Part shown: positions 37,480 through 38,645 of the stretch, piece by piece
How the letters are laid out: each line of letters opens with the position of its first letter
Numbering within the stretch: position 1 is the first letter of the stretch
DNA from: Branchiostoma floridae
Taxonomy: Eukaryota > Chordata > Leptocardii > Amphioxiformes > Branchiostomatidae
NCBI RefSeq assembly: GCF_000003815.2
Contig: NC_049991.1
Span: 3,273,667 to 3,337,666 of the forward strand
Direction: 5' to 3'
Length of the DNA: 64,000 bases
Notes under the pieces: model-generated
Database searches by the model: none
Told to the model about the DNA's origin: nothing
The model's input: the letters and a program-made list of their open reading frames with translations, nothing else
Made by a program: the position numbers and the translations under genes

Positions 37480-38477
37480 GTAGCAAGCATTGAAGCAACT
37501 GAATGACCATAACGTGTTGCTATAGTCATCTTAAATTAGTTTCCATGGTTTCTCGTATACAGCCGACTATTGGGGCAACTCTACAGAACAACGTGTTGTT
37601 CTAGTCATCATGAGTTTGTTTCCATGGTTTCTCGTATACAGTCAACTAATGTGGCAACTCTACATAACAACGTGTTGTTCTAGTCATCATGAGTTGGTTT
37701 CCATGGTTTCTCGTATACAGTCAGCTGATGGGGCAACTCTACATAACAACGTGTTCTTATAGTCACCATGAGTTGGTTTCCATGGTTTCTCGTATACAGT
37801 CAGCTGATGGGGCAACTCTACATAACAACGTGTTGTTCTAGTCATCATGAGTTGGTTTCCATGGTTTCTCGTATACAGTCAGCTGATGGGGCAACTCTAC
37901 ATAACAACGTGTTCTTATAGTCACCATGAGTTGGTTTCCATGGTTTCTCGTATACAGTCAGCTGATGGGGCAACTCTACATAACAACGTGTTGTTATAGT
38001 CACCATGAGTTGGTTTCCATGGTTTCTCGTATACAGTCAACTAATGTGGTAACTTTACAGAACAAACGTGTTATTCTAGTCTTCATGAGTTTGTTTCCAT
38101 GATTTCTTGTATATAGTCAACTAATGGGGCAACTCTACATAACAACGTGTTGCTATAGTCACCATGAGTTGGTTTCCATGGTTTCTCGTATACAGTCAGC
38201 TGATGGGGCAACTCTACATAACAACGTGTTGTTATAGTCACCATGAGTTGGTTTCCATGGTTTCTCGTATACAGTCAGCTGATGGGGCAACTCTACATAA
38301 CAACGTGTTGTTATAGTCACCATGTGTTGGTTTCCATGGTTTCTCGTATACAGTCAGCTGATGGGGAAACTCTACGTAACAACGTGTTGTTATAGTCACC
38401 ATGAGTTGGTTTCCATGGTTTCTCGTATACAGTCAGCTGATGGGGCAACTCTACATAACAACGTGTTGTCATGATCA
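37480..38477 (-). repeat. 79-bp minisatellite derived from the protease last exon
   Basis: Twelve units with a period of 79 bp (one of 80) follow the protease stop codon without a break. Landmark GAGTTGG sites recur at 37691, 37770, 37849, 37928 and so on to 38482, the last lying in exon 7. Read on the minus strand, each unit contains a degenerate copy of the exon end ([18 protein letters not shown]), but with TGG where the gene has its TGA stop. Since 79 is not a multiple of three, the units cannot be read as one long frame. The array would form the start of the 3' UTR and contains no AATAAA; it abuts a 100-N gap, so its true length is unknown. Confidence 0.93.
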
Positions 38478-38645
38478 TCATGAGTTGGTTTCCATGGTTT
38501 CTCGTATCCAGTCGGCCAATGAGGGAACCCTAGCGTACACCCCGGGAGCGTCTGCGCGTGCGCAGCCGTGCCCCCAGCTCACCACACCCTGTAACCAATG
38601 AGCGCCCGTGGAAGACTTGCAGACGAGAGGACCACCGCTGTCTCC
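38478..38645 (-). CDS. CUB-protease exon 7 (catalytic Ser, C-terminus)
   Basis: Begins after AATCTCCAG in phase 0 with [10 protein letters not shown] (S370), continues [20 protein letters not shown] and ends [12 protein letters not shown] followed by TGA at 38480-38478. The last ~17 codons and the bases after the stop are the founding copy of the 79-bp tandem repeat that runs on to 37480. Confidence 0.92.

Follow-up and report, generated by a model that had tools for sequence, protein, structure and literature searches.

A 64,000-nucleotide stretch of the Branchiostoma floridae genome (hereafter the window) carries, on its minus strand, a gene for a CUB-trypsin protease whose stop codon (TGA at 38480-38478) is followed by a tandem array of 79-bp units resembling the last codons of the gene itself. 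Did the coding end give rise to the repeat, or did the gene take its end from a repeat that was already there? And if the exon came first, how did its copies multiply, do they still communicate with it, and is such an arrangement exceptional in this genome?

The protease gene and the array behind its stop codon

The assignment of the host gene to the S1 (trypsin) proteases relies on the catalytic-serine motif and on Pfam Trypsin matches in four exons, one of them weak. Reading along the minus strand, we recognized a CUB-domain coding stretch (42780-42971; Pfam CUB, 8.2e-14), an exon with the motifs RIVGG and TAAHC (41202-41348, matched part only; Pfam Trypsin, 1.1e-15), an exon cut by an assembly gap at 39950-40458 (40459-40704, matched part; 3.6e-18), and an exon at 39244-39413 with the donor TGTCAG/GTGGGC, whose Pfam Trypsin match (0.00021) is just above the cut-off and which joins in frame to the last exon. 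The latter (38478-38645; acceptor CTCCAG/GGAGACAGC) bears the GDSGGP catalytic-serine motif, matches Pfam Trypsin at 6.5e-15 and is aligned by PDB structures to its C-terminus. The best PDB match of the joined exon peptide, taken without the part falling into the 39950-40458 gap, is plasma kallikrein (5.6e-61). We also noted a signal-peptide-like stretch, and did not find the second half of the CUB domain. Within 100 kb on either side of the gene there is no tandem protease paralogue to serve as an outgroup. The signal-peptide-like exon has a repeat of its own nearby: a 22-bp tandem array at 44114-44302 ends 14 bases from its probable donor, CTCAG/GTGAGG (last exon base 44317).

Tandem Repeats Finder (TRF) reported a repeat at 37511-38513 with a period of 79, 12.7 copies, 92% matches and a score of 1654. 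Set in register on the minus strand from 38537 to 37510, it resolves into the 13 units of the initial annotation, namely the exon end plus 12 copies, spaced by 79 bases in 11 of the 12 steps and by 80 in the remaining one. With head-to-tail units within the range of about 10-100 bp and a single locus among the matches in the assembly, the array is a minisatellite, and the label ‘satellite’ given to it earlier has to be replaced accordingly. The founder unit (38459-38537, minus strand) comprises 19 codons and the stop, followed by 19 bp of 3' flank, with clear homology in the unit alignment over the last 17 codons; the earlier estimate of about 17 codons plus the stop thus holds (17-19), and its roughly 30 bp of 3' untranslated sequence shrink to 19. 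The 12 derived units, numbered from u1 (nearest the gene) to u12, occupy 37510-38458 on the same strand. No further unit was detected upstream of the founder, where 180 of 500 shuffles scored as well.

The exon and the majority sequence of the array are identical at 64 of 79 positions, including an uninterrupted block of 29 bp (columns 31-59) that encodes IRETMETNS and the TG of the stop. Coding homology extends past this block to about 17-19 codons, since the 24 columns upstream of it match at 14 positions, an agreement attained in 0.06% of random windows. That each further unit keeps a copy of IRETMETNS was correctly noticed at the outset: the peptide is intact in nine of the 12 copies, off by one residue in u2 and u12 and by two in u5. 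The accompanying statement that TGG replaces the stop is true of seven copies (u1-4, u6, u7 and u9); four (u5, u8, u10 and u11) have TGA at this position and u12 has AGA. In the copies with TGG or AGA, TGA is the next codon.

Direction of copying and growth of the array

What distinguishes founder from copy is a tryptophan near the C-terminus. This residue is kept in all 91 exon ends of trypsin-family genes in this genome in which the column could be aligned (the gene in the window included), as well as in all five alignments inspected among 493 PDB matches, and it is lost in all 12 array copies, where its codon position reads TGT in 11 and TAT in u5. Of these 493 matches, 60 were listed; the alignments of PDB trypsins, chymotrypsins and kallikreins extend through the protease's C-terminus, and some other exon ends of the genome closely resemble it (e.g. 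WIHQTMDNN-stop at locus L032 and WIHQTMEEN-stop at L049). Because the exon agrees with its family and the derived state is that of the array, the protease exon is, on the evidence of these alignments, the founder of the array, as proposed in the initial annotation.

The repeat is likewise specific to this locus. A search of the 513-Mb assembly (513,431,437 bases in 431 contigs) with the 79-bp unit, in which very common words were skipped so that counts are lower bounds, returned 13 matches, all at the protease locus. This does not agree with satellite DNA, whose long arrays occupy many sites or heterochromatin, and within this one genome it disposes of the earlier proviso that the units might belong to an unrelated dispersed satellite. 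The window itself contains no other copy of array length, only one chance match of 12 bases.

The relationships among the units are those of an array with a homogenised middle. Units u1 and u3 are identical, as are u7 and u9 and also u8 and u10, the last two pairs representing a two-unit block that is repeated. From the majority sequence u12 differs at 13 positions, u5 at 11 and the other units at 0-6, and the longest terminal branches of the unit tree lead to the exon, u12 and u5, with low support at most nodes. At columns 3, 20, 24 and 60, u12 agrees with the exon and not with the majority. The G at the stop column looks derived within the array, given that the A of the exon is also found in five copies (u5, u8, u10, u11 and u12).

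An account that we consider very likely combines a neutral tandem duplication behind the stop with later expansion and homogenisation. The segment from the last 17-19 protease codons to 19 bp past the stop would have been tandemly duplicated, and the duplication would have been tolerated by selection, because the extra copy would lie behind the first stop and leave the protein unchanged. Unequal exchange or slippage among the copies, the mutational mechanism that we infer, would then have produced the 12 copies and homogenised the middle of the array, and the end units (the exon and u12) would have escaped homogenisation and diverged. What resulted would be a neutral 3' flank, probably transcribed in part as 3' untranslated region (UTR) and having no function of its own. 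Two observations fit this account less well: the inner unit u5 is divergent too, and a clean run of 29 columns is not predicted by simple one-way decay.

The 3' flank, possible exchange with the exon and alternative origins

Beyond the array lies an assembly gap of 100 N (37380-37479), separated from u12 by 30 bases (37480-37509, minus strand) without clear similarity to the unit: 829 of 2000 shuffles scored as well against the majority sequence and 98 of 2000 against u12. The array does not resume in the 1000 bases past the gap (86 of 200 shuffles as good), no unit occurs beyond the gap within the window, and the outermost unit, u12, is already decayed. The much longer array envisaged in the initial annotation may exist within the gap, but these sequences lend it no support. 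The only readable AATAAA between the stop and position 35500 on the minus strand, a candidate poly(A) signal that could be a chance occurrence and besides which the gap could hide others, is at 37369-37374. As it stands beyond both array and gap, the mRNA may include the array, and a longer 3' UTR running through the repeats is plausible. Farther along, at 32810-34592, two plus-strand open frames with Pfam 7tm_1 matches mark a rhodopsin-family receptor gene convergent with the protease gene.

Several other origins for the array can be weighed against this background. That the repeat existed first and the gene captured one unit as its C-terminus would account for the shared sequence, and nothing else speaks for it; we reject this idea as extremely improbable, for the C-terminus is of the family type both among PDB trypsins and in the 91 genomic exon ends, the copies have no family tryptophan, and the assembly search found the unit nowhere else. 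If, on the other hand, the array were a regulatory 3' UTR element kept by selection, its possible inclusion in transcripts, suggested by the position of the AATAAA, would make sense. Yet two units (u1 and u2 together) gave no signal of unusual RNA structure (z -1.17), no Rfam family matched at the gathering score in 37000-45000, the copies vary in 24 of 79 columns, and the arrays behind other protease genes are dissimilar, which makes such an element very unlikely. The proximity of the 100-N gap, 30 bases from the outermost unit, invites the suspicion that the assembly has inflated or collapsed the number of copies. Private differences in several units, the single 80-bp spacing and comparable arrays at other loci surveyed render a mere artefact highly improbable, even if the copy number may still be wrong.

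A further possibility would add to the neutral account rather than replace it: the exon may be not only the founder but also a current member of the array, so that the last protease codons are continually rewritten by gene conversion or unequal exchange with the array. Differences between exon and array are indeed unevenly placed, with 11 in the 30 columns upstream of the identical block, none in its 29 columns and four in the 20 columns downstream, i.e. an identical core with diverged flanks on both sides. Under random placement so long a clean run has a P of 0.0067, and Fisher tests of upstream versus core columns gave P from 0.002 to 0.049 depending on the choice of columns. Nor is the core simply frozen, since the array units vary at seven of its 29 columns. 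The ratio of fixed to polymorphic columns, 0:7 in the core versus 8:17 elsewhere, does not, however, reach significance (P 0.15), the exon retains a tryptophan absent from all 12 copies and a TGA absent from eight of them, and the data represent one locus and one haplotype. Exchange from the array back into the exon is possible as judged from the sequences, but its ongoing operation strikes us as unlikely. Its effects on the protein would differ along the unit: within the identical core an exchange would add at most one tryptophan, and farther upstream it would replace the conserved one. The suggestion that the array could create alternative C-termini finds little room here. Long new C-termini appear unlikely, because TGA stands in all 12 copies either at the position of the stop or one codon later, and because the catalytic serine lies upstream of the repeat-founding segment, within the same last exon.

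Other trypsin-family gene ends and mirage minisatellites

To return to the neutral account, a coding sequence acting as the founder of a minisatellite had been called unusual in the initial annotation, a view that is not supported by the other trypsin-family genes of the same genome. With the last exon as a query against its own assembly (E up to 0.001) we obtained at least 94 matches, the gene itself included; near-identical pairs are present among them (83 distinct ends), and three of the 94 with an internal stop, maybe pseudogenes, were kept. For each, a 60-base segment closed by the first in-frame stop past the match was compared with the 370 bases that follow (at least 266), and a score of 30 was taken as the cut-off; when the first 61 loci were compared with one another (3548 comparisons), chance scores reached 27 at most. 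Seven of the 94 exon ends (7.4%) have a copy of their own coding end downstream, i.e. the gene in the window and loci L042, L061, L070, L071, L081 and L086, with L055 left out of the count as marginal (score 26).

TRF describes an 82-bp unit in 4.6 copies at 97% for L071 (G000:C3:32472435-32473010), a 51-bp unit in 2.2 copies at 98% for L070 (G000:C8:4876100-4876680), a 78-bp unit in at least 5.7 copies for L081 (G000:C16:17450460-17451030) and periods of 76-86 for L086; it has no row for L061, and for L042 its rows are confined to a 31-bp period and the doubled period, surrounding a copy of 22 bases. Copy numbers at the surveyed loci are lower bounds, as some arrays reach the end of the fetched stretch. 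The arrays of L071 and L070 are less diverged than that in the window. The 3' flanks of the seven are not clearly similar to one another (the best pairwise score is 21), and the arrays therefore look like separate events. Six of them span an apparent stop codon. The exception is L081, whose unit combines the protease exon end with a donor-like ACG/GTATGT and which is for this reason probably an array founded by a splice boundary. At L031 and L049, tandem arrays of 135 bp and 54 bp, respectively, occur in the protease 3' flank, the coding end not being included.

The frequency of such arrays has to be seen against that of tandem copies in general. Of 8000 segments of 60 bases drawn at random from the window and its surrounding 200 kb, a single genome region, 9.8% have a downstream copy (10.0% in an earlier sample of 6000), and at array edges, i.e. 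with no copy in the 170 bases upstream, 3.5% do. The 7.4% of the survey falls between these two rates, and coding ends give rise to arrays about as often as other DNA in this genome does. An enrichment of coding ends as founders over the edge rate was considered and is not claimed, because P rises from 0.048 (7/94) to 0.11 when the window gene is dropped (6/93) and to 0.23 when L081 is dropped as well (5/93). The falling of copies behind the stop is likely the reason why arrays of this kind survive. With other protease genes of the same genome showing independent cases, the array resembles a side effect of the genome's richness in repeats more than a specialised device, and a striking feature of one window proves to be near background. 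A broader claim, that trypsin-family gene ends repeatedly seed minisatellites across their stops and that array exchange then rewrites the last codons, so that C-termini would evolve partly by minisatellite turnover, we consider quite improbable.

Tandem repeats transcribed behind a stop codon are familiar as variable-number tandem repeats (VNTRs) in 3' UTRs, for instance that of human SLC6A3. The protease repeat shares their position but differs in that its unit derives from the gene's own coding end, an origin that is not known for 3' UTR VNTR units. A closer parallel is provided by the amphioxus ‘mirage’ minisatellites, which excerpts of two papers describe as tandem copies of intron/exon boundaries in the genes for Adh3, the globins BflGb6 and BflGb9, troponin C and PGBD5 (PMC3087553, PMC3902484), with regular splicing undisturbed in the Adh3 and globin cases. 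As in the mirages so described, the protease array consists of minisatellite-like copies founded by the gene's own exon, which is still in place and open. Like the BflGb6 mirage, with its homogenised middle and excluded boundaries in the excerpt concerned (PMC3087553), it has a homogenised middle (the identical pairs of units) and divergent ends (the exon and u12), although the inner u5 diverges as well. Unlike the mirages in those excerpts, its unit spans the stop and the 3' flank, and the founder unit, which starts 108 bp downstream of the acceptor (38645/38646), includes no splice site. No mirage across a stop codon was found in the titles and abstract openings of the open-access literature searched, and passages of PMC2632668 had no bearing on the subject. 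Splice-boundary arrays being already known in amphioxus, the stop-codon-spanning variant is, against these titles and excerpts, the new part, and it extends the mirage concept beyond splice boundaries to the boundary at the stop codon. The arrays of this gene family form a series, from a 51-bp unit with 98% matches through 82 bp (97%) and 79 bp (92%) to more decayed examples, from which it could be read how minisatellites founded by an exon arise, expand and degenerate.

The window contains other tandem repeats. Two arrays about 4 kb apart, at 14185-14897 and 18864-19405, have units of 182 and 185 bp with a long common stretch of consensus and are apparently one repeat at two places. On the plus strand, an open frame of 123 amino acids at 27987-28358 encloses 14.3 copies of a 12-bp repeat (28028-28199) whose translation reads SSYE/SSYD; the frame has no Pfam match and may be either coding or a product of chance.
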